Part shown: positions 8,001-64,000 of the stretch, in pieces
How positions within the stretch are numbered: position 1 is the first letter of the stretch
Layout: each line of letters begins with the position of its first letter
Origin: Pagrus major
Taxonomy: Eukaryota; Chordata; Actinopteri; Spariformes; Sparidae
Reading direction: 5' to 3'
Assembly (NCBI RefSeq): GCF_040436345.1
Contig: NC_133224.1
Location: 7,060,741 to 7,124,740, forward strand
DNA length: 64,000 bases
Position numbers and translations under genes: made by a program
The notes under the pieces: model-generated
The model's database searches: none
Told to the model about the DNA's origin: nothing
The model's input: the letters and a program-made list of their open reading frames with translations, nothing else

Positions 8001-10800
8001 TTCTGGCGCAGTTCTGCAGTGTACTGGTGTGAGTCTGGATCAGGAGAGTTCAGCAACGCGGTCAACATCACTATACAGGGTATGATTTCACTTAATCACT
8101 ACATCACACCTCCATTTATTTGTTTCAACACATATTTTATGTTGATCACATCTACATGGAAGAGTTCAGTACACTGACATCTTAATAGTTTGGCCCATTA
8201 CTGCCACATGGTATCTTAAGTAATGGCGGGTAACTAAATTACCCAACATTTTTCTTTAATTTGACTTAAGTAGGTTCATCCTTTGTTATGATATTTGAAT
8301 GTGAATTTTTATCATTAGTAAATCAACATTTAGCAGCATCTTAGCACACATAACAAGTTACACCAAAACCTTTGCCAGAAACAAATGTCACCTATCTTTC
8401 AGATTTAGAATTTTTTAACAAAACAAACAAAAAGCTCAAGATTAATATATCATTGAATTATTGTATTATTATCCAAAAACTACTGTGCAGTCGGGTTGAA
8501 AATCATTAGTCCTCTGCACAGCAGTATAATTCAGTTGGGTACTGGTTAAATACAGGCAATGCCAAAGAATCTATATTGAATGAACGGCTAGCTGCACACC
8601 AGAAAACTCAGCTCTGCACCAACTTCCTCGGTTATCATTAAAAAAACTGCAAATAAGACAACCCCCTATATCTGCAGCTGTTTGAATGAAAACATATGAA
8701 AAACCAGAGCTGAGTTTTCTGGTGTGCAGCAAGCCCTTAAAACAAAACACTCTATTTTGTGGCAGTAACCTTCCACTATTTGTTTCCTATGGTATCTACA
8801 CAAGATCAACTGTCAGATTTTATAATGTCACAGAGTACAGCTTCTGCACACCTTATGATCGAAAGGTACGCACCTGAGATGGAGATGACAGAAGGCCGAC
8901 AAAATCAGGAAAAAGACTCGCACGCTCTCCAATTTCACTTGCAAATAAGTTTAATGACAACGTTTTGGTACTTAGACCTTCATCAGGTTTATCTAGATAG
9001 ATCTAGATCTATATAGATAGATAGATCTATTTAGAGTCTTTTTCCTGATTTTAAAGTAAGTTTTTAAGTGTGATGTTTAACGACTGTGCGACTGTTTAAC
9101 AGATGGAGATATGATCCTGCTGAGTCCTGCCCGTCCTGTGACTGAGGGAGAGTCTGTTAGTCTGAGCTGCAAAGTAAGAAGCCAAACATTTGACTCCACT
9201 GTGTTTTTCTATCACAATGAGAAACTGATTCAAAGTGACACCAGATGGGAGTTAAATATCTCTGCAGTGTCAAAGTCAGATGAAGGATTCTACAAGTGTC
9301 AACACTCAGGACGAGAGTCAGCACAGAGCTGGATGTCAGTTCAGGGTGAGTAGGAAACTGAAAGCAAAATATGGTCAAACACTTAACTGAATTTGAAGGA
9401 GCGTTGGCTTCAGATGACTTTGCCTGTTGGATTCAGTAAATAACAATTCTTCATTTTGAGCTGAAGAGTCTGCATCAGTGGTTGTGACAGTCAGGATTTA
9501 TTGTGAACAGCTGATTTCCACATTGTATTCTGACATTTTCATGTATATATTTTATTACTGTCTGTGTATTAACTTGTGTATCACAATATGGATGGTATTA
9601 AAACATGATGCTTTGCATGTATGTACATACGTGTTGTTTATATCTCTGGTCATCTGCATCTTTTTTACCCTTTGTAAATTAAGTTTCAGAACAGTACAAG
9701 TTTACTGACAGGTATTATTTGTTATTTATCACAACAGTGTCCAGGCATGAAAGCTTTTCATTTCCAGTACGGATGATTGTTGGGCTGATTTGTGGACTCG
9801 TTCTTATTCTTCTTCTGCTCCTGCTGTTTCGCTATAAAGCTTCCAAGGGTGAGACCTTCTTCTTCTATTATTAGATGTTGTGTTTGAATTGTCCAAAAAC
9901 ACAGAGGTATTCTGATTGCATATCAGAGGAATAGCAATATAACTTTGTAATAATAATAATGATATAATAATATTACATTACAAAATGTAACTGAGAATGA
10001 CTTTTTCACAGATTCATCCTTCATCAGGTAGGTGCAACACTTTCTCATCTCATTTTGAACTTAACATCAACACATGTTTATGTTCCTATTTAAATGTATT
10101 GTATCTGATACGTGTTGTAGACCAGTCCAGTCTGAGAGCGCCAACACAGATCGTGTGGTCTACGAGAATGATAATTACTCTGCTCTTCTCCATGGTAAGC
10201 AGTTAAACTAATCTTTATATTTCAGATAATTTAAAAACCTGAGGATGTTCAATTAGTATCATAAACTGAGCTTGTCTTGATTTTCTTTTCTCTGTAGGCG
10301 ATGTTTTTCTCTATGAACCAATCAGTGGCCCTGGAGAAGCTGGACATGGTACAAATTGACAATCCTTTAAGTTTTACATTTCAAATTCACATTACATTTA
10401 CATGTCTGATTAATCCAAGAATGTCACATATTCTTTGATTGATCTTACTGCTAAGAAGAGTGAGTACTTTAGAAGTGCCTATAGTGTAGATACTTTTGTA
10501 GACAAGCAGTGTCTAAATGAAGTACAGAAAATTGTTCTGATGAATTCATCTGATTCTTCTAGCAGTGGCGAACAATGAACCAGAAGAGGATGCTGTTTAC
10601 GCAGAGATGGAAGAGATGGAATCAGCTGCAGGTACAGTCAAGTACAACAGACACTGAACAAAATATAGATATGTCACTGAAATATTATTTCCTGTTTTAA
10701 AGAAATAACAGAACAAAAAAATAAAGAAGTAAAGCACCCTTAATCCTTATATAACCCCTAATCTTTTCTTTTTCTCTTTGGTTTTCTTTCAGGTCAATAA
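5016..10800 (+). CDS. FCRL-like receptor gene A (5 Ig domains, ITAM-like tail)
   Basis: Thirteen exons: 5016-5052 and 5380-5412 (split signal peptide, MGHTWLSVLGLF then LLNTLLYGHAE), Ig exons 6039-6305 (IV), 6442-6717 (V), 6887-7186 (VI), 7813-8079 (VII), 9103-9345 (VIII), transmembrane 9738-9848, then 10012-10027, 10121-10194, 10298-10348, 10566-10631 and stop exon 10793-10800. Joined frame is 582 aa, type I membrane protein. Each Ig exon is phase 1-1 with a Cys pair and a YxC motif; type VII has an extra Cys pair (STC and SDC/STC-type positions). Transmembrane segment lies in residues about 486-508. Tail has Y531, an ITAM-like Y536-SAL-x7-Y547-EPI, and Y570 (AVYAEM). FcR-like Ig domains with this order are typical of teleost FCRL/LITR-type leukocyte receptors. 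Ligand unknown. Only gene with FLYEPI instead of CLYETI. Confidence 0.85.
8592..8729. repeat. inverted repeat in gene A intron VII-VIII
   Basis: CTGCACACCAGAAAACTCAG near 8592-8611 is reverse-complementary to the sequence ending near 8729, with roughly 90 bp between the arms. Genes C and D keep only the left arm in the equivalent intron. Confidence 0.7.
8901..9052. repeat. small element bounded by a perfect 19-bp inverted repeat
   Basis: AAAATCAGGAAAAAGACTC at 8901-8919 is the exact reverse complement of 9034-9052. The interior includes a stretch of the form CTTCATCAGG and an imperfect TAGATC repeat. The block is absent from the same intron of genes C, D and E, so it looks like a gene-A-specific insertion. 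Confidence 0.65.
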
Positions 10801-18200: not shown

Positions 18201-19609
18201 CACCCCGCATCAGACTGCTCCTACTGGGGGACAATGAATGGATCAACATGCAACATAGACACCGACAGGCCCAGTGATGCAGTGTACTGGTGTGAGTCTG
18301 GATCTGGAGAGTTCAGCAACGCAGTCAACATCACTATACAGAGTATGATTTCACTACATTTGTTTTTTCTAATATCAATGATCCCATTGTGTGTTGAGGA
18401 GTACAAGACACTGACATATAAAGAGTTTTGTCCAACACTCTGCTTCATGATTTCTCAAGTAATAAAATGTTTTCAATTAATAAACACAGTTAGAATTCAA
18501 AGTAGTTTTAGTTTCAGACAACTTCACCTGTTGGATTCAGCGCTTTGTAAATTCAGTTTTAGAAACATGCCGTGATACAAGTTCATTAACACTTCATTTT
18601 TACTATTTATTGCAACAGGGCCTGAAAGATTTGCTGTACCGTTGGTTGTTGGGCTGGTTTGTGGAATCGTTCTCGTTATGCCTCTGCTCGTTTTGTTTTG
18701 CTACAGAGCGTCCAATGGTGAGACCTTCTTCTTCTATTATTAGATGATTTTTAATTATTCAAATACACACACATACTCTGATCTCATGAGATAGAAAAGC
18801 AGTATAACAACCATCTAACAACAAATGTCTTTTTCACAGATTCATGCTTTGTCAGGTAGGTGCAACACTCTCTCATCTCATTTTGAACATAACATCAACA
18901 CATCTTTATGTTCCTATTTAAATGTATTGCATTTGATATGTGTTGTAGACCAGTCCGGTCTGAGAGCACCAACACAGATCGTGTGGACTACGAGAATGAT
19001 AATTACTCTGCTCTTCTCCATGGTAAGCAGTTAAACTAATCTTTATTTTTTAGATAATTTATTTTGAATAATCAAAACATCTGAGGATGTTTAATTAGTA
19101 TCACAAATTTACCTTGTCTTGATTTTTATTTCTCTGTAGGTGATGTTTGTCTGTATGAAACAATCAGAGGCCGTCAAGAAGCTGAACATGGTACAACTGA
19201 TGCCTTGACAATCCATTAAGTTTCAAAATATATTTACATTTCAAATTGGACCAATGATGTTTCATATTCTTTGATTGATCTTTTTAAAAAAAACTGCTAA
19301 AAACAGTGAGTACTTTATTTTGTGTGGTGAGAATTACATGCAATAGTTGAGAACTCTTTGTAGGCCAGCAGTGTCTAAACAAAGTACAGGAAGTTGTTTT
19401 TCATGCATTCATCTGATTTTTTCTACAGTGGCAGATGATGAACCAGAAGACAGCGCTGTTTACATGAATGTACAGATGAGATCAGCTGCAGGTACAGTCA
19501 AGTACAACAGACAGTACTAAATGTAAATATAATACTACTGTGATAGTTGTATTCAAACAATTCAAACTCAAAATTGTTTTTTCCTTTGCTTTTTCTTTCA
19601 GGTCAATAA
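12239..19609 (+). CDS. FCRL-like receptor gene B (7 Ig domains, ITAM-like tail)
   Basis: Exons: 12239-12275 and 12656-12688 (signal), Ig 13837-14100 (I), 14420-14683 (II), 15569-15838 (III), 16394-16660 (IV), 16810-17085 (V), 17258-17557 (VI), 18076-18342 (VII), transmembrane 18619-18717, then 18840-18855, 18949-19022, 19140-19190, 19429-19491, stop exon 19602-19609. Frame of 762 aa. An in-frame ATG four codons upstream (12227) is possible; 12239 matches the paralogues. It is the only complete gene with Ig type I and the only one without juxtamembrane type VIII: the VII-to-TM intron is just 276 bp. The tail has Y712, ITAM-like Y717-SAL-x7-Y728-ETI and Y751 (AVYMNV, which also fits a Grb2-type YxN). 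Family FCRL/LITR-type; ligand unknown. Confidence 0.85.
13341..13440. repeat. copy of an unnamed dispersed repeat (gene B intron)
   Basis: The block around GGAGAAACTTTATAAACTTT and GGCCTTCTTGTAAATTC recurs near 31932-32030, 41869-41970, 53262-53360 and 53600-53710, and inverted near 50540-50700 and 50760-50870. The intergenic copies are more diverged than the three intronic ones. Confidence 0.6.
16200..16370. repeat. decayed SINE-type fragment in gene B intron III-IV
   Basis: The stretch with CCCTGTGATAGACTGACAAC followed by CTGTTCGGGACGTAACC resembles the widespread fish repeat tail of the form 'gatagactggcgacctgtcc'. An almost identical block lies in gene E at about 44158-44328 and none in gene D, which has gene-A-like sequence there. 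Confidence 0.5.
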
Positions 19610-20875: not shown

Positions 20876-23631
20876 ATGGGGCACATTTTGCTCTGTGCGC
20901 TGGGGTTATTCTGTGAGTACATCTGTCACTTTTTTCACTTTTTGACTTTCAGTGTCAGACTCATTAACATGTTTGTTTTACACATATGAGCTCTGTTGCA
21001 ATGCATGTACAGTATTTAGATACAGATACAGATATTGTAATGAATATGAGAGATATTTGTTTCTTTCCTCTGTGGTAGAATATCATCACAGAAATGTGTG
21101 ATGCTTTTTAATTGTTGAGAAGTTGATGAAACTTCAGCTGGATTTTAAATACTTATGATTATTGTCTAATCAACTTTTCATCTTTATTTTAGTGCTGAGT
21201 TCACTCTTCTATGGACATGCTAAAGGTGAGCAATTGTCTTTTATCTATTTACAATTTTTTTTTTTTTCTTCCTGTTTATCACCTATTGTATCACTCTCAC
21301 TGATCAGTTCCTCTTTCTGTGTTTCTTTTTTTTCTTTTTAATACACATTTTGCATTTCTGGTATGCATGATTTTGTTCTAATTGTACAGATTTGTTATTA
21401 TTTCATTGTGGAGTAATATAGTTAGTAATTACACTTAACTGTCAGCATGCGGTTCCAATCATCTCTCTCACTTGAGGTCAGTGCCGGCCCTGACCAATTT
21501 GGTGCCCCTTTGCATCACAGTCAATTTCACAATCAATTTTCACACACTCACACAGAAACTACATGTATGTATTCAAGATTTTATTTCTTTTAAGTCAAAA
21601 ATATCACACCAAATAAAAACTGAAGAAAGAAACAAGTGATAAATGAAAAATACAATATAAATAAGGCATTGCACAAACATTAAAGAATATTCTATTAACA
21701 TAAGAATAAAAACAGTGAACACGAAAACAAGTGACATAAAATGAATTAAAAATACAATATAAAGAAGGTATCGCACAAACATATTAAAGAATATTGCCAC
21801 TCTGCTGTGCTGAGGTAGAGGGGAGGAGCACCTGATGTTGTGGGGTGGTGGTGAAATATTTGAAAAGAGAAGTATATGTGACCACTGGATGTTACATTTT
21901 AATAAAAAAACAGATGCTTGGTGTGTGTCAACTTTATCGTCATTGCAATGCAATACAGTCTATCAGTCTAACCAGAGTGCAAAAAGCAGTAAAGTGCGGT
22001 GAAATGTATATACATATATATATATACAGTCATGGAAAAAATTATTAGACCACCCTTGTTTTCTTCAATTTCTTGTTCATTTTAATGCCTGGTTCAACTA
22101 AAGGTACATTTGTTTGGACAAATATAATGATAACAACAAAAATAGCTCGTAAGAGTTTAATTTAAGAGCTGATATCTAGCCATTTTCCATGGTTTTCTTG
22201 ATAGTAACCAAAATCACTTAAGTTCTTACATCAATAGCTATGGCACTGTACTGCCAAAAACACTGCTTTTAAGCATTCCATGTTTTCTTTTCTGTTTGCT
22301 TTAAACACATGATACACACAGGAGTTAGTACTTGATTGCGTAACCATTGTTTTTGATGACTGAAGCCATGCGTCTTGGCATGCTCTCCACCAGCTTCTGA
22401 CATTGTTCTGCTGTCACAGCAGCCCATTCCTGTTGCACAAATTCAAACAAATTTGCTTTGTTTTTGGGCTTGTGGTTCTCTATTTTGAGTTTGATGATTT
22501 TCCATAGGTTTTCAACTGGATTCAGATCTGGTGATTGAGCAGGCCAAGGCATGGTGCGAATGTTGTGGTTCTCCATCCAGGCTTTAACTGACCTTGCTGT
22601 GTGGCAAGGGGCATTGTCTTGTTGGAAAATCCAGTCATTCGAGGCAGGAAAGAGTTTTCCAGCTGATGGAAGAAGACTGTTTTCAAGAGTAGCCCTGTAC
22701 ATGACCTGGTTCATTCGCCCTTCACACAATTGCATTTGCCCTGTTCCACTCATACTGAAACAACCCCAGATCATCACTGATCCACCCCCATGTTTTACTG
22801 TAGGGGCAAGACAGTCTGGTTTGTAGGCTTCTCCAGGCCTCCTCCTAACCAGTAAGTTAGCTGGAGTGGGCATCAACTCAAAATTGGATTCATCACTGAA
22901 GAGAACCTTAGCCCAATCATCAACAGTCCAATCCTTGTGATCCCTAGCAAAGAGTAACCGGGCCTTCCTGTGCCTTTCGTTGATGAAGGGCTTCTTCCGT
23001 GCTCTGTGTGACTTCAGACCAGCTTCAACAAGTCGGTTTCGAACTGTCCTTGCCGAACAAGTCACATTTCTCGACAGTGCCCACTCATTTTTAAGGTCCC
23101 TGGAGGTCTGACGACGATTCCTGACACAGGAACGGACGAGTGCACGGTCATCTCGTGGGGTAGAGAGACGTTTCCTGCCGTGGCCAGGTAGCAATTTGGT
23201 AGTGCCGTGTTCGGCTTGTTTTTTCTTGTTGTAATGAACAGCTGTCTTGGAGAGCTTTAGTTTTTTTGCTACCTGTCTCTCACTCATGCCAATTTCCAGC
23301 AGTGCCAAGATGGCTGCCTTTGTGGCTTCACATAATTCTTTTGTTTTAGGCATTATGTGAGAGCTGACAACTTCTAGTTGTGCTATGGCTTGAATGTAAG
23401 CAGGAAACCACTCTAAGCCTTTGCATGTGCAGTGCTGCTTATGACATGAAATGGCCTCTTATATACCCTGGGAATACAATTAAGCTTAAGAATGTCAAAT
23501 AGGACATAAAGTATTATGTGATCAGCTGCATTTTTTGTCGTGTTCATTGTATTATACCTTTAGTGGTACCAGGTATTAAAATGAACAAGAAATTGAAGAA
23601 AACAAGGGTGGTCTAATAATTTTTTCCATGA

Positions 23632-23669
<38 letters not shown>

Positions 23670-23670
23670 T

Positions 23671-23724
<54 letters not shown>

Positions 23725-26700
23725 AGCCTATGCATGATATGGGAAAGTTATGGAGTATTAGCAGTAATACACTTTAACTGCACTTTAACACTGATGTAAA
23801 CTTTAACAAACATAAACTGTGACACAATAAACCAAAGGCTTACAACTACCCTATTACTTATAAAGGGGATGGAAAACTAATAGCATTTTAACTGACATAC
23901 AAGCAGGGAAAACACAGCCAACACGTTTTTCTTCCTCTTCTTTCCTTCTTTTCCTTCCCTGGGCGCCGGATGGTTTCAATCTTTTGGAAACTGTGGTTCT
24001 GCTACAGTATCAATAAATCTCAGATTCAGGCAACTCGCAAAAGTCCAAAAGTGTCAGTGCTATAATCAAATTATAAAATATAATATTTTGCTTGTTGTGA
24101 AAGAGAGAGGGATATGTTTAAACTGATATGTATTCAGTATTCAAAAAAAATCAGTGTTAATATAAATGCAAATTTAAGTCTAACAATTCAAGTAATTCTT
24201 TCCTGTGTGGGCTGCACTACTTTATACATTTCCTTTTTTATGTCTTTGTTCTAAATCAAACAGCAAACAGACCAAAGGCTGAACTGAGGGCTGATGACAG
24301 AGACATTCCTGTAGGGGGCAGTGTGACCCTGACCTGCTCTGTGAACCCATCATCTGGTTGGAAATACTTCTGGTACAGAGGAGAGAAAACATCTGAACAT
24401 CTGACCACTCAACTCTCAGCTGGACGAATCAGAGTCTCAGAGGAAGGAGTCTACTGGTGCAGAGGAGGAAGAGGAGAGCCAGTTAACTACACAGAGTACA
24501 GTGATCTAATCACTATCAGCAAAAATGGTGAGTTTGACATTTGTTTTGTTTTTTTACACATAATTAAAAAATGAATGTTGTAAAGCTGAAAGCTGAAGAT
24601 ATTATGGGGGGGCGGCTGTAGCTCAGTGGGTAGAGCAGGTGACCAGTGACCAGAAGGTCGCTGGTTCGAACCCCAGCTCCCCTGGGCAGAACTGAGCTAC
24701 ATGCCAAAGCATCCTTGAGCAAGATACTAAACCCACACCTTGTGTGGCAGCCTCTGCCGTCAGAGGGCCCTGCGATGAGCTGGCGACTCGTCCAGGGATA
24801 TACCCTGGCCTCCACCCTATGAGAACTGGATTTGGCCCCAGTAACCCACAACCCGCAATCCCCTGAAAGGGGGGATAAAGCGGCAACATCTCCGCGACCC
24901 TCATGGAAAAGCGGTAGATAATGAACTGAACTGAACTGAAGATATTATGATTTGATGTAGATCCAACTCTTTGTCATTTTTGTTTCCTTCCTATGAATTC
25001 TTGAACATGAGCAGTTCACAACAAGGCTGTTGTGACTCTGAAGCCAAACTGGTCTGAAATATACAGAGGAGAGACGATCACTCTCAGATGTGAGATCAAA
25101 GATGGAGGAGACACTGAGTGGGAGTATGAATGGAAAACAACCAGCTCAGAAAAACCTTCAAATCAAAATGAACACAGAATAGGATTTGCTACTGAATCCC
25201 ACAGAGGAGACTACAGGTGTAAGGGCAGAAAGAAAAGTGAAAAGTCTTCAACAGATTGGAGTGATCCCTTCAAACTGACAGTATCAGACAGTAAGTCACA
25301 TCATAAAAGGCTGTTTTGGTTCATATATATTTTTAAAGTAAATCTTCAGTGTGTACTGATTATGCAGAATGTATTTAATCCACTATCAATACATGTTTTC
25401 ATTCTGAAAACTCATTTTCCAACAGAACCCCGGCCTGTCCTCACTGTGTCTCCATCATGGCTGAGTGCTGGAGCCTCAGTAACTCTGACCTGCAGTGTTA
25501 AAGATCAATCTGCAGGATGGAGGTGCTACTGGTATAAGACTGTTCCTGATATATCAAACTACTTCTACAGCTATGAGCTGCTACCTGGCAGCAGCAGTGG
25601 GACTGAACAGGCTTCCTACATTGTTCATGGACAGACACACACAGCACGATATATGTGCAGAGCTGGAAGAGGAGATCCAGCGTTGTACACTGATTACAGT
25701 AAACCTAAGTTTGTCTGGTCTGCAGGTCAGTTTGTCTCATGTTATATCATCAGCTCTGTGTATCTATTTTCTGTATGTAATGAAAATAAAGTAACTAACT
25801 TGGAAGTTGACAAATAATTATCAATAATAATAATCATAATAATGTGTATAAAGATAAAAATTATAATTTCACCAAAACTTGTACTAATCCTAAGAAAAGA
25901 AAAAAAATAAATCAAATGAATATTTGAATTGTGGAGTTTATAATCTGAAGATCTCTGTGCTCTGTTTGACCTCTTATCACATGTTGTTTTTCAGATTTTC
26001 ACTCATCAGCGTCTCTCACAGTGAGTCCTGACAGAGCTCAACACTTCGCCTCTGACTCTGTCTCACTGAGCTGTGAGGGAAACTCTACTGAGTGGAGAGT
26101 GAAGAGGTTAACTAAGAACAGATACCTGTCAGACTGCACCACCTGGAGGACAATGACTGGATCTACATGCAACATAAAAACTTACTGGCGCAGTGATGCA
26201 GTGTTCTGGTGTGAGTCTGGATCAGGAGAGTTCAGCAACGCAGTCAACATCACTATACAGGGTATGATTTCATTATATTTGTTTTTTCTTTTGATAAATT
26301 ATTTTGCACATCCCATTAGGTACTTCAACATATATCAGATGTTGTTCACACTGAGGAGTACAGTACACTGGCATTTTAAGAGTTTGGCCTACTATATTAT
26401 ACTATATATAGTATAGTATATAGTTTACTATATGTTATCTTCAGTAACTATAGGTGACCAGGATTAATCGAAATAATGTTTTCTACTCAATGTAGATTGA
26501 CTTAAATAGGTTCAGCTTCATTATAATGATTCAATCTTATTTTTTATCATTTGTAGACACCATCAACATTCAGCAGCATCTGAACACACAAAACAAGTTA
26601 CACCAAAACCTTTAAAAAAATGTCACCTTTTTTTCAAAGTAATATTTTTAATAAAACAAACAAAAAGGTTTAGATTTATATGATTGATTTATTGTTCCAC

Positions 26701-29611
26701 AAGATTATTATCCAAAAACTACTGTGCAGTCGGGTTCAAAATCATTAGTCCTCTGCACAGCAGTATAATTCAGTTGGGTACTGGTCAAACACAGGCAATG
26801 CCAAAGAATCTATATTGAATGAACGGCTATCTGCACACCAGAAAACTCAGCTCTGCACCAACTTCACACTTATTTGGTTTTCATTTAAACAACTGCGAAT
26901 ATTATATTTATATATTTGTTGAAAAAGTCATAAAACTCATTCATATAGTATCTACACAAGATCAAATGTCAGATTTTATTATGTAAAATAAATATGTGGG
27001 TGATCTATTTACATCATTGTACGCAAAGTCATTCTTAAGCTCCTCGACCAGCTGATCTCTGACTGAAACCTCGTATTCTTTGACTGTTTAACAGATAAAA
27101 ATATGATCCTGCTGAGTCCTGCCCGTCCTGTGACTGAGGGAGAGTCTGTTAGTCTGAGCTGCAAATTAAGAAGCCAAACATTTGACTCCACTGTGTTTTT
27201 CTATCACAATGAGAAACTGATTCAAAGTGACACCAGATGGGAGTTAAATATCTCTGCAGTGTCAAAGTCAGATGAAGGATTCTACAAGTGTCAACACTCA
27301 GGACGAGAGTCAGCACAGAGCTGGATGTCAGTTCAGCGTGAGTAGGATTAAAACAATTATTCCATTTTCTATATGTGAACTGTTTCTGTCTGAGAAAGAA
27401 GTTTAGCTGAATACTGAACCAAATTCAAAGTAGTTTTAGTTTCAGACACCTTCACCTGTTGGTTTCCGTTGACTCTGATTAAAGCACTTTGTAAATTCAG
27501 TTTTAGAAACATGTTCATTAATAGTTAATATTTACTATTTATTACAGCAGTGTCCAGGCCTGATAGCTCTCCATTTCCTGTACTGTTGGTTGTTGGGCTG
27601 GTTTGTGGACTCGTTCTTGTTATTCCTCTACTGGTGTTGTTTCGCTACAGAGCGTCCAAGGGTGAGACCTTCTTCTTCTATTATTATATGTTTTTTAATT
27701 ATTCAAATACACACACATACTCTGATCTCATGAGATAGAATAGCAGTATAACAATCATCTAACAACAAATGTCTTTTTCACAGATTCATGCTTTTTCAGG
27801 TAGGTGCAACACTCTCTCATCTCATTTTGAACATAACATCAACACATGTTTATGTTCCTATTTAAATGTATTGTATCTGATATGTGTTGTAGACCAGTCC
27901 AGTCTGAGAGCGCCAACGCAGATCGTGTGGACTACGAGAATGATCATTACTCTGCTCTTCTCCATGGTAAGCAGTTAAACTAATCTTTATTTTTTACATA
28001 TTATATTTTAAGTAATCTAAAAAAATCTTAGTTTGTTTAATAAGTATTGGAAACTAACCTTGGCTTGATATTTATTTCTCTGTAGGTGATGTTTGTCTCT
28101 ATGAAACAATCAGAGGCCGTCAAGAAGCTGAACATGGTACAGTTTATACCTTTTTATTTAACATGGAGCTGTTAGAAATATGAGACAATTTAATGTAACT
28201 GTAAATGACTTGTTGACAATCCTTGAGCATATTTATTTGTCTGAAATGACATATTTTAGACTGAGTTACACATCTAACAACAAATGTCTTTTTCACAGAT
28301 TCATGCTTTGTCAGGTAGGTGCAACACTCTCTCATCTCATTTTGAACATAACATCAACACATGTTTATGTTCCTATTTAAATGTATTGTATCTGATACGT
28401 GTTGTAGACCAGTCCAGCCGGAGAGCGCCAACGCAAATCGTGAGGACTACGAGAATGATCATTACTCCTCTCTTCTCCATGGTAAGCAGTTAAACTAATA
28501 TTATAAATCTAATCTTACATATTTATACAGTGGGGTCCAAAAGTCTGAGACCATTGAAATTCTCTGATATTGTCACGTAAACCAGGAAATAATCAGAAAG
28601 TGCTAAGAAAGTGTAAGTCTTCACTTCACAGAATCTGGATCAGTTGTATCCAAAGCACGATCAGACAGACTCAAAGTGGCCACACCATCAGAAGATCAAT
28701 AAATCAAGTTTGTTCTCTGAAAGATAGAAAAGCAACTTCATCACAGATTCAGAATTTGAAAAATACACACACAAGAATCCAATCAGGTGAAATCTGTCAA
28801 AGGAAAGCTGTCTTGTAGTTGTCTGGAGGACGATTAGCCATTCCTAAACCACTTCTTAGTTGGTGAAGCAAAAGACTGGAGGTGGGTTAAGAAATACCAG
28901 AATTCTTCAAAGAATCAACTTTTAACTCAAATTGTTCAGCTGATATTATCATCTGCAATAAAAAATATTATTATATACAAAACAAATGCAAAATAGAGTT
29001 GTTGCGTGGTCTCAGTCTTTTTGACTCTATAAACACATTTTAAATGATCAAAACAATCTGAGGTCTCACATGATTCATTTGTTGTTTACAGTTAAAGTGA
29101 TTAAATTAACCTTGACTTGATTTTCATTTCTCTGTAGGTGATGTTTGTGTCTATGACACAATCAGAGGCCGTCAAGAAGCTGAACATGGTACAGTTTATA
29201 CCTTTTTATTTAACATGGAGCTGTTAGAAGATGTCAGAGAGGGGGGAGAGAGAGGGGGAGGGAAAGAAAGAGGGGAAACAGGGTGAGATGAATAGGGGGG
29301 AGAGAGTGGAAGAGAAATAGGGGGAGAGGGAGAGAAAGAGAGAGGGGAGAGAAAGAGAGGGGGAGGGAGAGTAGGGGGAGGGAGAAAGCGAGAGATGGGG
29401 AGAGAGTGGAAGAGAAATATGGGGAGAGAAGGGAAGGAAAGAGAGAGGGAGTGAGGGGGAGGCAGAGATAAGGGGAGAGAAAGGGGGGAGGGGAGAAGAG
29501 AGAGGGGGAGAGAGAGAGAGAGGACAGAGTAAAATGTCACAAAGCATTTTTAATCCTGACATCAACCTCAATCTCTTTTTGTTGACTTTGCTTTTTCTTT
29601 CAGGTCAATAA
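20876..29611 (+). CDS. FCRL-like receptor gene C (5 Ig domains, doubled ITAM-like tail)
   Basis: Exons: 20876-20912 and 21193-21225 (signal, MGHILLCALGLF), Ig 24264-24527 (IV), 25015-25290 (V), 25426-25725 (VI), 25995-26261 (VII), 27095-27337 (VIII), transmembrane 27551-27661, cassette 1 27784-27799, 27893-27966, 28086-28136, cassette 2 28299-28314, 28408-28481, 29138-29188, stop exon 29604-29611. Frame of 606 aa; TM exon covers residues about 474-510. The tail carries two ITAM-like motifs: Y535-SAL-x7-Y546-ETI and Y582-SSL-x7-Y593-DTI. It lacks the separate AVYxxM/V exon of A and B. Intron 2 (about 3 kb) holds a complete Tc1-like transposon and intron IV-V holds a SINE; neither disrupts an exon. 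Same Ig order as gene A. Confidence 0.84.
22027..23634 (-). mobile_element. complete Tc1/mariner-type DNA transposon in gene C intron 2
   Basis: Inverted terminal repeats begin CAGTCATGGAAAAAATTATT at 22027 and end with its complement at 23634. The two ends match with one difference over about 66 bp and similarity continues a little further. A TA dinucleotide flanks each end, as expected of Tc1 elements. The element lies inside a (TA)n tract, runs antisense to gene C and carries one intact transposase ORF. Confidence 0.93.
22325..23353 (-). CDS. Tc1-like transposase, intact
   Basis: Single-exon 342-aa ORF, full length for the Tc1 family. It begins MPKTKELCEATKAAILALLE, with a paired-type helix-turn-helix (SERQVAKKLKLSKTAVH) and a GHGRKR AT-hook/linker at residues about 58-63. 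The catalytic triad is visible: D in LFSDESNF, D in QQDNAPCHTA and E in NPVENLW, with exactly 34 residues between the last two, giving the DD34E signature. No stop or frameshift was seen. Cut-and-paste transposition at TA sites is the family function. Possibly still active, or recently inserted. Confidence 0.95.
   Translation of the reverse strand: MPKTKELCEATKAAILALLEIGMSERQVAKKLKLSKTAVHYNKKKQAEHGTTKLLPGHGRKRLSTPRDDRALVRSCVRNRRQTSRDLKNEWALSRNVTCSARTVRNRLVEAGLKSHRARKKPFINERHRKARLLFARDHKDWTVDDWAKVLFSDESNFELMPTPANLLVRRRPGEAYKPDCLAPTVKHGGGSVMIWGCFSMSGTGQMQLCEGRMNQVMYRATLENSLLPSAGKLFPASNDWIFQQDNAPCHTARSVKAWMENHNIRTMPWPAQSPDLNPVENLWKIIKLKIENHKPKNKANLFEFVQQEWAAVTAEQCQKLVESMPRRMASVIKNNGYAIKY
23635..23720. 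repeat. (TA)n microsatellite flanking the Tc1 element
   Basis: Almost pure TA dinucleotides; a shorter TA tract lies on the left side of the transposon (about 22011-22026), so the element inserted into a TA microsatellite. Confidence 0.9.
24607..24937 (+). mobile_element. tRNA-derived SINE in gene C intron IV-V
   Basis: The 5' end has RNA polymerase III promoter boxes: A box TAGCTCAGTGG at about 24619-24629 and B box GGTTCGAACCC at about 24663-24673. A non-tRNA body and an AACTG/CTGAA repeat tail follow. The element is bounded by a perfect 12-bp direct repeat, GAAGATATTATG, at 24595-24606 and 24938-24949, the target site duplication. Absent from the same intron of A, B, D and E. Confidence 0.88.
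28528..29030. mobile_element. decayed Tc1-type MITE in gene C tail intron
   Basis: Left end CAGTGGGGTCCAAAAGTCTG and right end containing TGGTCTCAGTCTTTTTGACT form imperfect inverted repeats next to TA. There is no transposase ORF. Related copies lie at the same intron in D (38478-39012) and E (48428-48990). Confidence 0.65.
29230..29528. repeat. purine-rich (GA)n/(GGGAGA)n low-complexity tract, gene C last intron
   Basis: About 300 bp of nearly pure purine on the plus strand, directly upstream of the stop exon. A shorter version is at 39220-39368 in gene D and none is present in gene E. Serine/proline/leucine ORFs on its reverse strand are artefacts. Confidence 0.85.
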
Positions 29612-36800: not shown

Positions 36801-39452
36801 TAGTCCTCTGCACAGCAGTATAATTCAATTGGGTACTGGTCAAACACAGGCAATGCTAAAAAATCTATATTGAATGAACGGCTATCTGCACACCAGAAAA
36901 CTCAGCTCTGCACCAACTTCACACTTATTTGGTTTTCATTTAAACAACTGTGAATATTATATTTATATTTATATATTTGTTGAAAAAGTCATAAAACTCA
37001 TTCATATGGTATCTACACAAGATCAAATGTCAGATTTTATTATGTAAGATAAATATGTGGGTGATCTATTCACATCATTGTACGCAAACTCATTCTCAAG
37101 TTCCTCGACCAGCTGATCTCTGACTGAAACCTCGTATTCTTTGACTGTTTAACAGATAAAAATATTATCCTGCTGAGTCCTGCCCGTCCTGTGACTGAGG
37201 GAGAGTCTGTTAGTCTGAGCTGCAAATTAAGAAGCCGAACTTTTGGCTCCACTGTGTTTTTCTATCAGAATGAGAAACTGATTCAAAATGACACCAGATG
37301 GGAGTTAAATATCTCTGCAGTGTCAAAGTCAGATGAAGGATTCTACAAGTGTCAACACTCAGGACGAGAGTCAGCACAGAGCTGGATGTCAGTTCAGGGT
37401 GAGTAGGATTAAAACAATTGCTGCATTTTCTTTTATATGTGAACTGTTTCTGTGTGAGAAAGAAATTTAGAAGAATTCTGTTCCTATTTATTACAACAGT
37501 GTCCAGGCCTGATAGCTCTCCATTTCCTGTACTGTTGGTTGTTGGGCTGGTTTGTGGACTCGTTCTTGTTATTCCTCTGCTCGTGTTGTTTCGCTACAGA
37601 GCGTCCAAGGGTGAGACCTTCTTCTTCTATTATTAGATGTTTTTTAATTATTCAAATACACACACATACTCTGATCTCATGAGATAGAATAGCAGTATAA
37701 CAACCATCTAACAACAAATGTCTTTTTCACAGATTCATGCTTTGTCAGGTAGGTGCAACACTCTCTCATCTCATTTTGAACATAACATCAACACATGTTT
37801 ATGTTCCTATTTAAATGTATTGTATCTGATATGTGTTGTAGACCAGTCCAGTCTGAGAGCGCCGACGCAGATCGTGTGGACTACGAGAATGATCATTACT
37901 CTGCTCTTCTCCATGGTAAGCAGTTAAACTTATCTTTATTTTTTACATATTATATTTTAAGTAATCTAAAAAAATCTTAGTTTGTTTAATAAGTATTGGA
38001 AACTAACCTTGGCATGATTTTCATTTCCCTGTAGGTGATGTGTGTCTCTATGAAACAATCAGAGGCCGTCAAGAAGCTGAACATGGTACAGTTTATACCT
38101 TTTTATTTAACATGGAGCTGTTAGAAATATGAGACAATTTAATTTAACTGTAAATGACTTATTGACAATCCTTGAGCATATTTATTTGTCTGAAATAACA
38201 TATTTTAGACTGAGTTACACATTTAAAAACTAATGTCTTTTTCACAGATTCATGCTTTGTCAGGTAGGTGCAACACTCTCTCATCTCATTTTGAACATAA
38301 CATCAACACATGTTTATGTTCCTATTTAAATGTATTGTATCTGATATGTGTTGTAGACCAGTCCAGTCTGAGAGCGCCAACGCAAATCGTGAGGACTACG
38401 AGAATGATCATTACTCCTCTCTCCTCCATGGTAAGCAGTTAAACTAATATTATAAATCTAATCTTACATATTTATACAGTGGGGTCCACAAGTCTGAGAC
38501 CATTGAAAATCTCTGATATTGTCACGTAAACCTGGAAATAATCAGAAAATGCTAAGAAAGTGTGAGTCTTAGCATCAAATCATTTCCAGACTCAAGGTTT
38601 CTAAAGGGGCATTGCATGTAACAATATAAACTGTAAAACACTTCACAGAAACTGGATCAGTTGTATCCAAAGATCAATAAATCAAGTTTGTTCCCTGAAA
38701 GATAGAAAAGCAACTTCATCACAGATACAGAATTTGATAAATACACACACAAGAATCCAATCAGGTGAAGTCTGTCAAAGGAAAGCTGTCTTGTAGTTGT
38801 CTGGAGGATGATTAGCCGTTCCTAAACCACTTCTTAGTTGGTGAAGCAAGACAAAAGACTGGAGGTGGGTTAAGAAATACCAGAATTCTTCAAACAATCA
38901 ACTTTTAACTCAAATTGTTCAGCTGATATTATTATTATTAAAAAATATTATTACATTGAAAAAAAAATGCAAAATAGAGTTATTGCGTGGTCTCAGTCTT
39001 TTTGACTCTATAAACACATTTTAAATGATCAAAACAATCTGAGGTCTCACATGATTCATTTGTTGTTTACAGTTAAAGTGATTAAATTAACCTTGACTTG
39101 ATTTTCATTTCTCTGTAGGCGATGTTTGTCTCTATGACACAATCAGAGGCCGTCAAGAAGCTGAACATGGTACAGTTTATACCTTTTTATTTAACATGGA
39201 GCTGTTAGAAGATGTCAGAGAGGGGGGAGAGAGAGGGGGAGGGAAAGAAAGAGGGGGATGGATTGAGAGTGGGAGAGAGAGGGGAGAGAAAGAGAGAGGG
39301 GAAGAGAAGTAAAGGGAAGGAAAGAGAGAGGGAGTGAGGGGGAAGAGAGAGGGGGAGACAGAGGACAGAGTAAAATGTCACAAAGCATTTTTAATCCTGA
39401 CATCAACCTCAATCTCTTTTTGTTGACTTTGCTTTTTCTTTCAGGTCAATAA
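30838..39452 (+). CDS. FCRL-like receptor gene D (6 Ig domains, doubled ITAM-like tail)
   Basis: Exons: 30838-30874 and 31250-31282 (signal, MERTLLDVLGFF), Ig 33920-34189 (III), 34693-34956 (IV), 35093-35362 (V, two codons short), 35500-35802 (VI, one codon longer), 36072-36338 (VII), 37156-37398 (VIII), transmembrane 37500-37610, cassette 1 37733-37748, 37842-37915, 38035-38085, cassette 2 38248-38263, 38357-38430, 39119-39169, stop exon 39445-39452. Frame of 695 aa. ITAM-like motifs Y624/Y635 and Y671/Y682. Compared with E it lacks Ig type II: the segment that should hold it is occupied by a LINE fragment, yet splicing from exon 2 to type III keeps the frame because all these exons are phase 1-1. 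Very similar to gene E through most of its length. Confidence 0.84.
32188..33846 (-). mobile_element. non-LTR retrotransposon (LINE) fragment in gene D
   Basis: Comparison with B and E places the breakpoints near 32188 and 33846. On the minus strand it starts within the end of an APE-type endonuclease (VPVSDHSCVFF), passes a linker containing SAPWFSDLTRSLKRA and enters a reverse transcriptase. It is truncated at both ends: the 3' part of the ORF and any 3'UTR are missing, which is unusual for a simple LINE insertion. It resembles fish LINEs of the L2/CR1/Rex1 group. Confidence 0.85.
32188..33846 (-). pseudogene. LINE endonuclease-RT ORF fragment, broken
   Basis: Reverse transcriptase blocks are clear: SLDPIPSDLLKE, LANYRPVSTLPFLSKILER, FRSCHSTETAL, LDLSSAFDTVDH, GVPQGSVLGPLLF and the catalytic FYADDTQLY. 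One in-frame TGA at 33433-33435 interrupts the frame between linker and RT, and the C-terminus runs into host intron sequence below about 32188. Non-functional. A CpG-type C-to-T change could explain the stop, but the original base is not known. Confidence 0.85.
38478..39012. mobile_element. decayed Tc1-type MITE in gene D tail intron
   Basis: Same element and intron position as in gene C, with similar imperfect inverted ends; it therefore predates the split of C, D and E tails. Confidence 0.65.
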
Positions 39453-46700: not shown

Positions 46701-49367
46701 ATTTCTGCCAATAGATCCCCCTAAATCCTACACACTGGACCTTTAAAGCACTGTGTGGTTTGTAGGACCCTGTTGACACCTGTTGTTTATTTGGTAAAAG
46801 GTGACTTGTACAGTAGGAGACTCAAGGTGTTTGATAAAACATCAGATTTTATGATCACTCTGTTAAATCAGTGAGCAATAAGCAGAAGAAAAACCCAGTA
46901 TGTGTCTTTTCTCATCTATCTACATCCACTCATTCTCAAGTTCCTCGACCAGCTGATCTCTGACTGAAACCTCGTATTCTTTGACTGTTTAACAGATGGA
47001 GATATGATCCTGCTGAGTCCTGCCCGTCCTGTGACTGAGGGAGACTCTGTTAGTCTGAGCTGCAAATTAAGAAGCCAAACTTTTGACTCCATTGTGTTTT
47101 TCTATCACAATGAGAAACTGATTCAAAATGACACCAGATGGGAGTTAAATATCTCTGCAGTGTCAAAGTCAGATGAAGGATTCTACAAGTGTCAACACTC
47201 AGGACAAGAGTCAGCACAGAGCTGGATGTCAGTTCAGGGTGAGTAGGATTAAAACAATTATTCCATTTTCTTTAATATGTGAACTGTTTCTGTGTGAGAA
47301 AGAAGTTTAGCTGAATACTGAACTAATTTCAAAGTAGTTTTAGTTTCAGACACATTCTCCTGTTGGTTTCTGTTGACTCTGGTTAAAGCACTAATTCAGT
47401 TTTATTCATTAATAGTTAATATTTACTATTCATTACAGCAGTGTCCAGGCCTGAAAGCTCTCCATTTCCTGTACTGTTGGTTGTTGGGCTGGTTTCTGGA
47501 CTCGTTCTTGTTATTCCTCTGCTCGTGTTGTTTCGCTACAGAGCGTCCAAGGGTGAGACCTTCTTCTTCTATTATTAGATGTTGTTTAATTATTCAAATA
47601 CACACACATACTCTGATCTCATGAGATAGAATAGCAGTATAACAACCATCTAACAACAAATGTCTTTTTCACAGATTCATGCTTTGTCAGGTAGGTGCAA
47701 CATTCTCTCTCTCATCTCATTTTGAACATAACATCAACACATGTTTATGTTCCTATTTAAATGTATTTAAATGTATCTGATACGTGTTGTAGACCAGTCC
47801 AGTCTGAGAGTGCCAACGCAGATCGTGTGGACTACGAGAATGATCATTACTCTGCTCTTCTCCATGGTAAGCAGTTAAACTTATCTTTATTTTTTACATA
47901 TTATATTTTAAGTAATCTAAAAAAATCTTAGTTTGTTTAATAAGTATTGGAAACTAACCTTGGCTTGATTTTCATTTCTCTGTAGGTGATGTTTGTCTCT
48001 ATGAAACAATCAGAGGCCGTCAAGAAGCTGAACATGGTACAGTTTATACCTTTTTATTTAACATGGAGCTGTTAGAAATATGAGACAATTTAATGTAACT
48101 GTAAATGACTTGTTGACAATCCTTGAGCATATTTATTTGTCTGAATGACATATTTTAGACTGAGTTACACATCTAACAACAAATGTCTTTTTCACAGATT
48201 CAGTCTTTGTCAGGTAGGTGCAACACTCTCTCATCTCATTTTGAACATAACATCAACACATGTTTATGTTCCTATTTAAATGTATTGTATCTGATATGTG
48301 TTGTAGACCAGTCCAGTCTGAGAGCGCCAACGCAAATCGTGGGGACTACGAGAATGATCATTACTCCTCTCTCCTCCATGGTAAGCAGTTAAACTAATAT
48401 TATAAATCTAATCTTACATATTTATACAGTGGGGTCCAAAAGTCTGAGGCCATTGAAAATCTCTAATATTGTCACGTAAACCTGGAAATAATCAGAAAGT
48501 GCTAAGAAAGTGTGAGTCTTAGCATCAAATCATTTCCAGACTCAAGGTTTCTAAAGGAGCAGTGCATGTAACAATATAAACTATAAAACACTTCACAGAA
48601 ACTGGATCAGTTGTATCCAAAGACAGACCCAAAGTGGCCACACCATCAGAAGATCAATAAATCAAGCTTCGTTCCCTGAAAGATAGAAAAGCAACTTCAT
48701 CACAGATACAGAATTTGACACACACAAGAATCCAATCAGGTGAAATCTGTCAAAGGAAAGCTGTCTTGTAGTTTTCTCGAGGACGATTAGCCGTTCCTAA
48801 ACCACTTCTTAGTTGGTGAAGCAAGACAAAAGACTGGAGGTGGGTTAAGAAATACCAGAATTCTTCAAACAATCAACTTTTAACTCAAATTGTTCAGCTG
48901 ATATTATCATCTGCAATAAAAAATATTATTACATCCACAACAGTTGCAAAATAGAGTTGTTGCGTGGTCTCAGTCTTTTTGACTCTATAAACACATTTTA
49001 AATGATCAAAACAATCTGAGGTCTCACACGATTCATTTGTTGTTTACAGTTAAAGTGATTAAATTAACCTTGACTTGATTTTCATTTCTCTGTAGGTGAT
49101 GTTTGTGTCTATGACACAATCAGAGGCCGCCAAGAAGCTGAACATGGTACAGTTTATACCTTTTTTTTTAACATGGAGCTGTTAGAAAAACTGAAATAGG
49201 ACAATTAACAATAAATGGCTCATTAACAATTCTTTAAGTAAAAAAAATATTTACATTTCAAATTAATCCAATGATGGATTAACATATTATTTTATTGATT
49301 GTAAAGAATCCTGACATCAACCTCAATCTCTTTTTTGTTGACTTTGCTTTTTCTTTCAGGTCAATAA
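40775..49367 (+). CDS. FCRL-like receptor gene E (7 Ig domains, doubled ITAM-like tail)
   Basis: Exons: 40775-40811 and 41188-41220 (signal), Ig 42328-42600 (II), 43533-43802 (III), 44353-44616 (IV), 44766-45041 (V), 45176-45475 (VI), 45745-46014 (VII), 46996-47238 (VIII), transmembrane 47442-47552, cassette 1 47675-47690, 47793-47866, 47986-48036, cassette 2 48198-48213, 48307-48380, 49096-49146, stop exon 49360-49367. Frame of 788 aa, the longest of the cluster. ITAM-like motifs Y717/Y728 and Y764/Y775. Exon type I, present in B, has been removed by the same roughly 0.62-kb deletion seen in D (junction near 42066-42070). The gene combines B-like introns around types II to IV with C/D-like 3' sequence, suggesting recombination between paralogues. 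Confidence 0.85.
44158..44328. repeat. decayed SINE-type fragment in gene E intron III-IV
   Basis: Near-identical to the block at 16200-16370 of gene B. The shared insertion marks common descent of this intron in B and E. Confidence 0.5.
46384..46747. mobile_element. palindromic MITE in gene E intron VII-VIII
   Basis: Ends TTTAAAGGTCCAGTGTGTAG and its exact complement bound about 364 bp with no coding capacity. The terminal repeat is about 26 bp. The equivalent intron of A, C and D lacks it and has different sequence, so it is specific to E. It is likely a non-autonomous DNA transposon; superfamily not assigned. Confidence 0.8.
48428..48990. mobile_element. decayed Tc1-type MITE in gene E tail intron
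   Basis: Third copy of the element at the orthologous intron (see 28528-29030). Confidence 0.65.
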
Positions 49368-57952: not shown

Positions 57953-59582
57953 ATGGGTCACACTCTGCTCGGTGTGCTCGGGTTACTCTGTGAGTACATC
58001 TGACTTTCTATGTGATGTTCAGTATTTATATCAATGTAGTAGTTGCATAGGCAGGACCTTTGTTGCTGATTTGGCTTGGTTCAGATTGGAGGATTATGTC
58101 CATACCTGGACAATACATGAACAGTATATGATCTAAGGTATTATGTATATAGCTGTGGAGTTACATTTATTGCTTATTTTACTGGGCCTCTATATATTGA
58201 AGAGTTTTAAATGTGTTTCCCACCTCTGTAGCTCTGTAGCAGGATATCATCACAGACATGTGTGATACTGTTGATTGATAAACAATAGTTGCCACTGATG
58301 AAACTCCAGCTGGATTTTGTATTTGATTCTGGTCTAATGAAGTTTTCATCTTTATTTTAGTGCTGAATACACTCCTGTACGGACATGCTGAAGGTGACTA
58401 GTTATCTTTTCTATATTTACTGATCATGTTTGTCCTATCTGTCACCTACTGTGTCACTCTTGATCACTTGTTTTTGCAGTTGTGTTTTTCCATATATGTT
58501 TCATTTTACTCAGTGCACATTATGAAATGACTGGATTAGTGCTCAATTGTTAAGGGAAGCTACTTGGAAAGCGTAGCTCTGCATGATACCACTGACTTCA
58601 CACTGGAATAAGTTTAGTGTCTGTAAAGCTGCTTTAGTTTGGTTCACTGAAGCTGTGTAGAAAAAGCTGTTCAAACTGCTTTGTTAGAAAGATCAAATGA
58701 ACAAAACCTTATACAAAATTAAAACAGAATTGTTACAACCGTAGTGGTCGTATAAACATATGAGTTTACCTACACTCACGTATGAGTGAGTGTAGGTTGT
58801 CCAGGGAGCTGGTTTTGAGACTTGCTAAGTTAGTTAGCCATCTTGGGCAGGCCAGTAAAGTTTGGGTGTCTCTGCAGTTTGTTTCCCTTAGTTTTATACT
58901 TTGCACAGCAACTTGGTTTTGTGTGAGATGGCTGCTTTTGTTTTGGTCATTTTGGTGATGTGTGGCTGTAATTAACATTTTGTGTGCAGTAACTTGTAGT
59001 TTGTGACCTTTGGTTGTGGTAATTGTACTCCACTGGTGTAAGCTGACAACATTCGTGTGTAGTGGTGACTACAGAGTGACACCTTTTGTGTGGTGGTTGT
59101 TGCAGTCAACTTTTGGTGTGGTGACTCAGGTGTTACTGCTTTAGTGTACTTAATTACAGTTAGTGTGTTTGGGATGGAGTCACTCCACAGATCAGTGGAT
59201 CTTGAGTGGTGGGTGTGGCTTCCCAGTTTGTCCAGTCACTTTGTTTCTGGGTTACTATCTCCATTACAGTAACATGTGGTTGGAGACCACAAGGTGTCCA
59301 TTTTGTGTTGTGGTAGTGGCAGTTCACTTGTGTTGGATCTATGTGTGCTGCTGTTAGTGGATGGCAGAAATTCTGTAGTTTAACTACTCGTTGTGACCCT
59401 TTCGTTTTGTGGCTGTTGCCCTCCACTGTTGTGTTGGTCGCCTGTTGCTGTTTTGTGGTGAGTGTTACCACAGTAATTATGTGTTTGGTTTTAGTGGGAG
59501 TGGCACCCACTGATTTTGGTCCTGTACAAAAGATGAAGTGTCATTTTTATGTAGATTGTGGGTGGGGGGGTGGGGGGGTTAT

Positions 59583-59661
<79 letters not shown>

Positions 59662-62600: not shown

Positions 62601-64000
62601 GTAGAGAACCATTGATGAGAAGGCTGATAATACACAGTATTCCACTTGTGACACTAACAGCTGATTAGTGCCAAGTATGACATATTCCTCCCCAAAAGAA
62701 ACCTGACAGTCATGTTACATAATCTGCTAACCTGTACTTGTAATAGATGCATCTTGTGTTCAGAGTGCAGAGAGCAATTAAAACTCCCCTGGAGGAACAT
62801 GGATGACTTTCATCTTATTCAGGACATGAGTAGTGGTGCACTTCAGCCTCTTGTGGTCAAAATGAGTATTAGAGAAAGAAACACTTCGAAAAATGAGCCT
62901 TAATTTCCTCTTTTCACAGACACAGAAAAAAAAAAATCCATCCTGAAAAATGTTTTCACTCCTACTCAAACATGAAAAGAAAACTACATTTTACAACTCA
63001 CACCATATAAAAAAATGTTTCACTTGCCTTTTGCACGGCTTCTGTACATTTTCTGTTTCCTTACTGTGAATTCTTAAACTTTAACAGATCCAAACAAGGC
63101 TGTTGTGACTCTGCAGCCAAACTGGTCTGAAATATACAGAGGAGAGACGATCACTCTCAGATGTGAGATCAAAGATGGAGGAGACACTGAGTGGGAGTAT
63201 GAATGGAAAACAACCAACTCAGAAAAACCTTCAAATCAAAATGAACACAGAATAAGATTTGCTACTGAATCCCACAGTGGAGACTACAGGTGTAAGGGCA
63301 GAAAGAAAAGTGAAGAGTCTTCAACAGATTGGAGTGATCCCATCAAACTGACAGTATCACACAGTAAGTCACATCACATTTCTTTCAAAGTGAAGATTAT
63401 ACAGCTCATTAAAAGGCTGTTTTGGTTCAAATATATATTTAAAGTAAATCTTCAGTATGTACTGATTGTGCAGAATGTATTTGATCCACTATCAATACAT
63501 GTTTTCATTCTGAAAATAATTTTCCAGCACCACCCCGGCCTGTCCTCACTGTGTCTCCATCATGGCTGAGTGCTGGAGCCTCAGTAACTCTGAGCTGCAG
63601 TGTTGAAGATCAATCTGCAGGATGGAGGTTCTACTGGTATAAGACTGTTCCTGATATATCAAACTACTATTACAGCTATGAGCTGCTACCTGGCAGCAGC
63701 AGTGGGACTGAACAGGATTCCTACATTGTTCATGGACAGACACACACAGCAGGATATATGTGCAGAGCTGGAAGAGGAGATCCAGTGTTGTACACTGATT
63801 GCAGTAAACCTAAGTTTGTCTGGTCTGCAGGTCAGTTTGTTTCTATCTCTTAAGAAACAGATGTTATATCAGCTCTGTTCATCTTTTTCCTAAATGATGA
63901 TAAACATACAGTATCTTGAAAAAAAGAATATTAATTTACTGTGGTCTGATGAGCTTGTCTCTCTCACTACGTCAAGCTAAACTTCATGCTTTCCACCTTA
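57953..64000 (+). CDS. FCRL-like receptor gene F, 5' part (runs off window)
   Basis: Exons seen: 57953-57989 and 58361-58393 (signal, MGHTLLGVLGLL then LLNTLLYGHAE), Ig 60468-60728 (I), 61374-61640 (II), 63088-63363 (V) and 63528-63830 (VI). Phases agree. Types III and IV are absent: the 1.45-kb gap 61641-63087 holds unrelated sequence without Ig exons. Types VII and VIII, the membrane exon and the tail should lie beyond 64000. One VI-domain change is notable: the usual TDYS is TDCS (codon near 63798-63800), adding a free cysteine. Intron 2 (58394-60467) contains a GT-rich degenerate tandem repeat and a long (TG)n tract. Same family as genes A to E. Confidence 0.82.
58860..59510. repeat. degenerate GT-rich minisatellite in gene F intron 2
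   Basis: A loose unit of about 45-50 bp recurs, recognisable as GTGACCYTTTNGTNTGTGG followed by a TTGC and TCCACT segment (for example near 59005, 59075 and 59390). Divergence is high, so the boundaries are approximate. Reverse-strand threonine-rich ORFs are artefacts. Confidence 0.55.
59587..59660. repeat. (TG)n microsatellite
   Basis: Pure TG dinucleotide tract of about 37 units. Confidence 0.95.

Follow-up and report, generated by a model that had tools for sequence, protein, structure and literature searches.

The 64,000-nt stretch of Pagrus major contig NC_133224.1 analyzed here (the window) holds a plus-strand tandem array of at least five immunoglobulin (Ig)-type receptor genes, A to E, together with a portion of a sixth, F, near the right edge. 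Downstream of the Ig exons, the models of A to E each have one transmembrane exon followed by short tail exons. These tails contain a cassette of three exons of 16, 74, and 51 nt (141 nt), which starts at 10012 in A, 18840 in B, 27784 in C, 37733 in D, and 47675 in E, and which is present once in A, once in B, and twice in each of C, D, and E; the exon sizes are kept in 8/8 cassettes (A, B, C1, C2, D1, D2, E1, and E2). A preliminary description of this DNA had proposed the same distribution, and the interval it singled out, 27784-29188, coincides exactly with the span between the start of the copy-1 16-nt exon of gene C and the end of the copy-2 51-nt exon. Based on exon lengths, the cassette is entered and left in phase 1 (run 1-2-1-1) and is therefore frame-neutral, in line with the phase-neutral duplication that had been put forward. 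The cassette exons are located as follows.

27784..27799, plus strand: gene C copy 1, 16-nt microexon, with AG/GT borders
27893..27966, plus strand: gene C copy 1, 74-nt exon (YEND, YSALL)
28086..28136, plus strand: gene C copy 1, 51-nt exon (YETI)
28299..28314, plus strand: gene C copy 2, 16-nt microexon
28408..28481, plus strand: gene C copy 2, 74-nt exon (YEND, YSSLL)
29138..29188, plus strand: gene C copy 2, 51-nt exon (YDTI)
37733..39169, plus strand: gene D cassettes, D1 at 37733-37748, 37842-37915, and 38035-38085, D2 at 38248-38263, 38357-38430, and 39119-39169
47675..49146, plus strand: gene E cassettes, E1 at 47675-47690, 47793-47866, and 47986-48036, E2 at 48198-48213, 48307-48380, and 49096-49146
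10012..10348, plus strand: gene A single cassette, at 10012-10027, 10121-10194, and 10298-10348
18840..19190, plus strand: gene B single cassette, at 18840-18855, 18949-19022, and 19140-19190

The immunoreceptor tyrosine-based activation motif (ITAM) has the consensus E/D-x0-2-YxxL/I-x6-8-YxxL/I (PMC7042247; this and the other papers cited by PMC number are used here in excerpt). All eight cassettes encode YSxL and YxxI with a 7-residue spacer, within the 6-8 spacing of the paired YxxL/I, and have D at -2 of the first tyrosine as the upstream acidic residue. A pattern search of the tails, in which spacers of 6-12 were permitted and 7 was found, identified the motif twice per tail in C, D, and E (3/3) and once in A and B (2/2). 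The two motifs per C, D, or E chain noted previously are thus present, but the term "ITAM-like" used for them was too weak, as the full consensus is there, including the upstream acidic residue. Every cassette also has a third tyrosine, in YEND; the E1 cassette, for example, translates as DSCFVRPVQSESANADRVDYENDHYSALLHGDVCLYETIRGRQEAEH. The pattern of the inhibitory counterpart (ITIM), (S/I/V/L)xYxx(L/I/V), matched 0/5 tails (A-E). The reading frame of C, D, and E stays open from the first of the shared Ig exons, through the two cassettes, as far as the stop codon. The predicted tail has 96 residues, two consensus ITAMs, and six tyrosines; these cassettes contain neither a stop nor a frameshift, none of their splice dinucleotides has been lost, and the exon borders of copy 2 are the same as those of copy 1. 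It has to be considered that YxxL/YxxI motifs might serve mainly as endocytic sorting signals (YxxPhi), so that doubling would raise uptake and not Syk signaling. YSAL and YETI do fit YxxPhi too, but the paired motifs, the spacer of 7, and the upstream acidic residue agree with the ITAM consensus in 8/8 cassettes, and we regard this possibility as very improbable.

The first intron of the cassette (e.g., 27800-27892, 93 nt) shows 0-1/93 substitutions in every comparison among C, D, and E, with two short insertions in addition in E1. In the adjoining 74-nt exon, the copies differ at 6/74 positions in each of the three genes. Constraint on microexon splicing, or homogenization, could explain the near-identity of the intron.

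The two cassettes of gene C are part of a longer duplicated segment, of which the second copy has been enlarged.

27756..28270, plus strand: duplicated unit, copy 1, with a 515-nt period; the portion that can still be aligned to copy 2 is 27756-28177
28271..29229, plus strand: duplicated unit, copy 2, with an insert in the second intron
28503..29102, plus strand: gene C copy-2 intron stretch with the transposon-like insert; counterparts at 38452-39083 (D2) and 48402-49060 (E2)

Positions 27756-27987 match 28271-28502 (232 nt, 96%) and positions 28051-28177 match 29103-29229 (127 nt, 95%), in both cases with intron sequence included, and the similarity of the two cassettes is therefore not a matter of chance. 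From the exon positions, copy 2 has 537-596 nt more intron than copy 1. The same insert is found at the same place in C2, D2, and E2, where the versions are 3.4-3.8% apart by substitutions, and it is absent from the A, B, C1, D1, and E1 cassettes. In C2 it has 19-nt inverted ends (28535-28553 and 29007-29025; 89% complementary), which suggests that it is a short DNA transposon. Over 351 aligned sites, copy 1 and copy 2 of the same gene are separated by 14 differences in C, 16 in D, and 15 in E. A simple assembly duplicate of one sequence was rejected on account of these 14-16/351 differences, together with the insert and the recurrence of the arrangement in three genes.

The order of events was assessed with a tree of the cassettes based on 348 ungapped sites, and two constrained trees were compared by the approximately unbiased (AU) test. 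C2, D2, and E2 form a clade with 99% bootstrap support, and an independent duplication inside each gene was rejected, as the tree constrained to within-gene pairing is not compatible with the data (AU p=4.37e-5). Six columns are diagnostic of the copy and none of the gene; the four copy-diagnostic columns in exons are all derived in copy 2, with A and B carrying the copy-1 state. At the residue level, alignment of all cassettes confirmed the parallel changes reported for copy 2, namely SALL to SSLL and YETI to YDTI in C2, D2, and E2, and DRV to NRE (C2, D2) or NRG (E2). Summed over three pairs each, the differences amount to 44/1050 for copies within a gene, 20/1050 for copy 1 across genes, and 28/1050 for copy 2 across genes. 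The common insert, the copy-2 clade, the AU rejection, and the difference counts indicate that the duplication and the insert, like the changes common to copy 2, preceded the split of C, D, and E. The preliminary description had reached the same timing without mentioning the insert, which we consider the best evidence for it. At the level of genomic DNA, our data show that the ancestor of C, D, and E acquired a tandem copy of approximately 515 bp with the three ITAM exons, and that copy 2 later took up the intron insert.

Sequence exchange between paralogues has occurred in this family, as the Ig5 exons of genes A (9109-9345) and C (27095-27337) share 99% identity and their transmembrane exons 84%; no match to the Ig5 exon was found in gene B. 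This mosaic, and the almost identical intron 1 across the six C, D, and E copies, would also fit a scenario in which the two-cassette state was spread between paralogues by gene conversion or unequal crossing over, instead of arising by one duplication before C, D, and E separated. However, the similarity among C, D, and E extends through the entire 3' part of the gene and past it, in blocks of 91.5-96.0% (compared to 83.8-87.1% for blocks between C and B), and the copy-2 clade is strong. We consider such spread clearly unlikely and retain a single duplication preceding the split.

The array also varies in a tail exon outside the cassette.

10566..10631, plus strand: AVYAEM exon, gene A
19429..19491, plus strand: AVYMNV exon, gene B

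Searches with both versions as query (blastn, E up to 0.01; tblastn, E up to 10) revealed no third copy in the window, including C, D, and E, consistent with the earlier assignment of this exon to A and B only. On the 3' side of copy 2, gene E keeps a B-like intron (78 nt, 78%) and then joins the sequence preceding the last exon. A GA-rich low-complexity array lies 3' of the second cassette in C and D (29236-29516 and 39217-39364), where E has the A/B-like intron. Both one and two losses of the AVY exon are compatible with this arrangement. YxxM is a PI3K-type site and YxN a Grb2-type site. The tail of A combines an ITAM with YAEM (YxxM), that of B an ITAM with YMNV (YxN), and those of C, D, and E have two ITAMs, without YxxM or YxN. 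The "change in signal dose" that had been suggested is therefore incomplete: a second ITAM has been gained, but as the YAEM/YMNV exon is absent and YEND comes with each cassette, the tail differs in kind as well as possibly in dose. Judged from the gene models, the C, D, and E tail is re-composed, not merely doubled.

The receptor type was derived from the remainder of the gene models, of which gene C serves as the example.

24264-24527, 25015-25290, 25426-25725, 25995-26261, and 27095-27337, plus strand: the five Ig-domain exons of gene C, which continue in frame into the tail
27551..27661, plus strand: gene C transmembrane exon, by eye a hydrophobic stretch without acidic or basic residue
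29604..29611, plus strand: gene C final coding bases (complete GQ, stop)

Counted from the first shared one, there are five Ig exons in the models of A, C, D, and E and four in that of B; the models of A to E are open to the stop, with AG/GT borders at every junction used. Compared with solved structures, the gene C ectodomain is of the FcR/FCRL-related Ig-like kind, with the best matches to FCRL5 (E=2.7e-20) and FcgammaRI (E=1.7e-13), followed by PIR-B, FCRL4, and LILR chains. A split signal peptide with a 21-nt second exon is a hallmark of the FCR/FCRL family (PMC10003336), whereas a pattern search of the genomic DNA gave a candidate second signal exon of 33 nt in 6/6 genes (A-F); for this reason we use the label FcR/FCRL-like and do not call the genes FCRL orthologues. 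These models identify A to E as tandem genes for FcR/FCRL-like transmembrane receptors. The comparison of the tail with solved proteins gave two matches, with E above 0.5 and taken as chance, and a match of the tail to a Pfam zinc finger scored below the Pfam cut-off and was set aside.

Taken together, we think it probable that this is an FcR/FCRL-like array in which a single tandem copying of the ITAM cassette before the split, followed by the insert, has given C, D, and E two-ITAM tails that would recruit Syk/ZAP-70. Upon clustering, Src-family kinases would phosphorylate both ITAMs of a C, D, or E chain, the tandem SH2 domains of Syk/ZAP-70 would dock on each phosphorylated ITAM, and one chain could recruit two kinases without an adaptor; A and B chains would offer one ITAM plus a PI3K-type YxxM (A) or Grb2-type YxN (B) site. 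Direct signaling by the chain is expected because it has its own ITAMs and because, as judged by eye, the membrane stretch of C, D, and E contains no charged residue; in gene A, an R is found close to the outer edge of this stretch. It is plausible that the second ITAM changes the signal dose. In the T-cell receptor (TCR), ITAM multiplicity amplifies signals, yet is dispensable for some responses (PMC4428620), and weak antigen can elicit a better response from complexes that have fewer ITAMs (PMC12832860), so that the direction of a two-ITAM effect is not to be assumed. More tentatively, and in our view rather doubtful, the array might offer a naturally graded series of tails, carried by ectodomains that closely resemble each other (ITAM and YxxM, ITAM and YxN, and two ITAMs), with copy 2 changing in the residues that surround a still intact core of the ITAM (D to N, V to E/G, A to S, E to D) and the two ITAMs diverging in kinase preference.

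Several points weigh against a functional two-ITAM tail of single origin. With no constraint imposed, the tree places B within the copy-1 group, a position that is weakly supported (45-51), and part of the copy-2 signature may have been spread by gene conversion. SH2 docking on these ITAMs is deduced from the motif, splicing of copy 2 into mRNA is a prediction from genomic DNA, and the first signal-peptide exon was identified by pattern in 3/6 genes (A, B, and D only; the search was negative for C, E, and F), which leaves the 5' ends of C and E tentative. The copy-2 coding columns vary like the intron insert (9/141 and 29/552, p=0.54), the lack of indels in the copy-2 coding sequence has a probability of about 0.19, and the conservation of the ITAM tyrosines and their +3 residues in 8/8 cassettes would be expected by chance with P about 0.10. 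Of the copy-1 coding columns 4/141 vary, below the insert rate but not significantly (p=0.27). Among the six C, D, and E copies, more columns vary in coding (17/141) than in flanking non-coding sequence (11/210; Fisher p=0.027; the counts 17/141, 11/210, 9/141, and 4/141 are a manual tally from the cassette alignment), and between copies of one gene, summed over three pairs, differences are likewise more frequent in coding (29/423) than in non-coding positions (15/627). With this little sequence, no constraint on copy 2 is detectable relative to the intron insert. As copy-2 coding sequence varies at about the insert rate, the data do not demonstrate that a double dose has been selected for.

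The similar variation of copy-2 coding sequence and insert would fit an alternative in which most mRNA lacks one of the copies, so that the protein usually made carries a single ITAM and the duplication is a passenger, either neutral or generating isoforms. The cassette is frame-neutral with homologous exons in the same phase, it begins with a 16-nt microexon, and an intron of copy 2 has a large insert, all of which could favor skipping, and the matching phases make in-frame one-cassette isoforms possible. Conversely, copy 2 has retained the exon borders of copy 1, and C, D, and E have remained free of stops, frameshifts, and lost splice dinucleotides; we therefore regard predominant skipping as somewhat unlikely. 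The presence of three genes with both cassettes open mildly favors a function for the predicted two-ITAM chain.

CD3-zeta is a signaling subunit without an Ig ectodomain, whereas in C, D, and E the receptor chain itself bears the ITAMs. In FcgammaRIIA the ITAM is also in the receptor chain itself, as in these genes, but there is only one, with longer spacing. CD3-zeta and the TCR resemble C, D, and E in having several ITAMs per chain, a multiplicity that amplifies signals (PMC4428620). Human FCRL1 is an FcR-like chain whose own tail has two ITAM-like sequences (PMC10562807); their +3 residues deviate (S, V, A), whereas the motifs of C, D, and E have L/I, and in these genes the origin from a tandem three-exon cassette is visible. 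Multi-ITAM chains are thus already known (CD3-zeta, human FCRL1), to which C, D, and E add a modest variation, the tandem ITAM exon cassette.

The NILT/LITR genes of teleosts are likewise clustered Ig-type receptor genes with ITAM/ITIM tails (PMC3022915, PMC4810170), but the salmon NILTs have V-type Ig domains and 4-5 ITIMs from one exon, and the trout NILT/LITR entries one ITAM, or ITIM/ITAM; a duplication of a tail cassette was not found in the excerpts of these papers. CEACAM ITAM receptors share concerted evolution, but have a single ITAM-like motif per chain in the excerpts of PMC7042247. Xenopus XFL is a large FcR-like family with one to three YxxL/I/V motifs in the tails (PMC2413239). 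Tail motifs are varied both there and in the Fc receptor survey PMC4016189, where, for frog FcRLs, a supplementary legend gives up to 2 consensus ITAMs and the main text 2 consensus ITIMs; exon-cassette duplication was not found in the excerpts of either paper. Those of PMC9699129, PMC8718553, and PMC13278318 contain nothing on a duplicated ITAM cassette, and in the open-licence literature, covered in part, we found no such cassette in a fish FcR-like gene, which is weak evidence of absence. Among viral contigs, 9 pattern matches to related loci were obtained, of which 0 were confirmed.

The array captures a change in ITAM number soon after its occurrence, with one- and two-ITAM genes side by side on similar ectodomains. 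It would permit a natural test of ITAM number in a receptor that carries its own signaling motif, and it illustrates how a tail can evolve when a multi-exon cassette is copied without disturbing the frame.

Gene F starts within 58361-63830 and runs off the edge of the window. Genes B, D, and E have additional Ig-like exons or matches on the 5' side of the first shared one (14417, 15573, 33938, 42325, and 43537); none were found in A or C under the same filters, and the ectodomain length may differ across the array. In gene C, between the second signal exon and the Ig exons, a long transposon-like stretch ending in TA repeats is present at 22000-23680, which we take to resemble a Tc1-type element.
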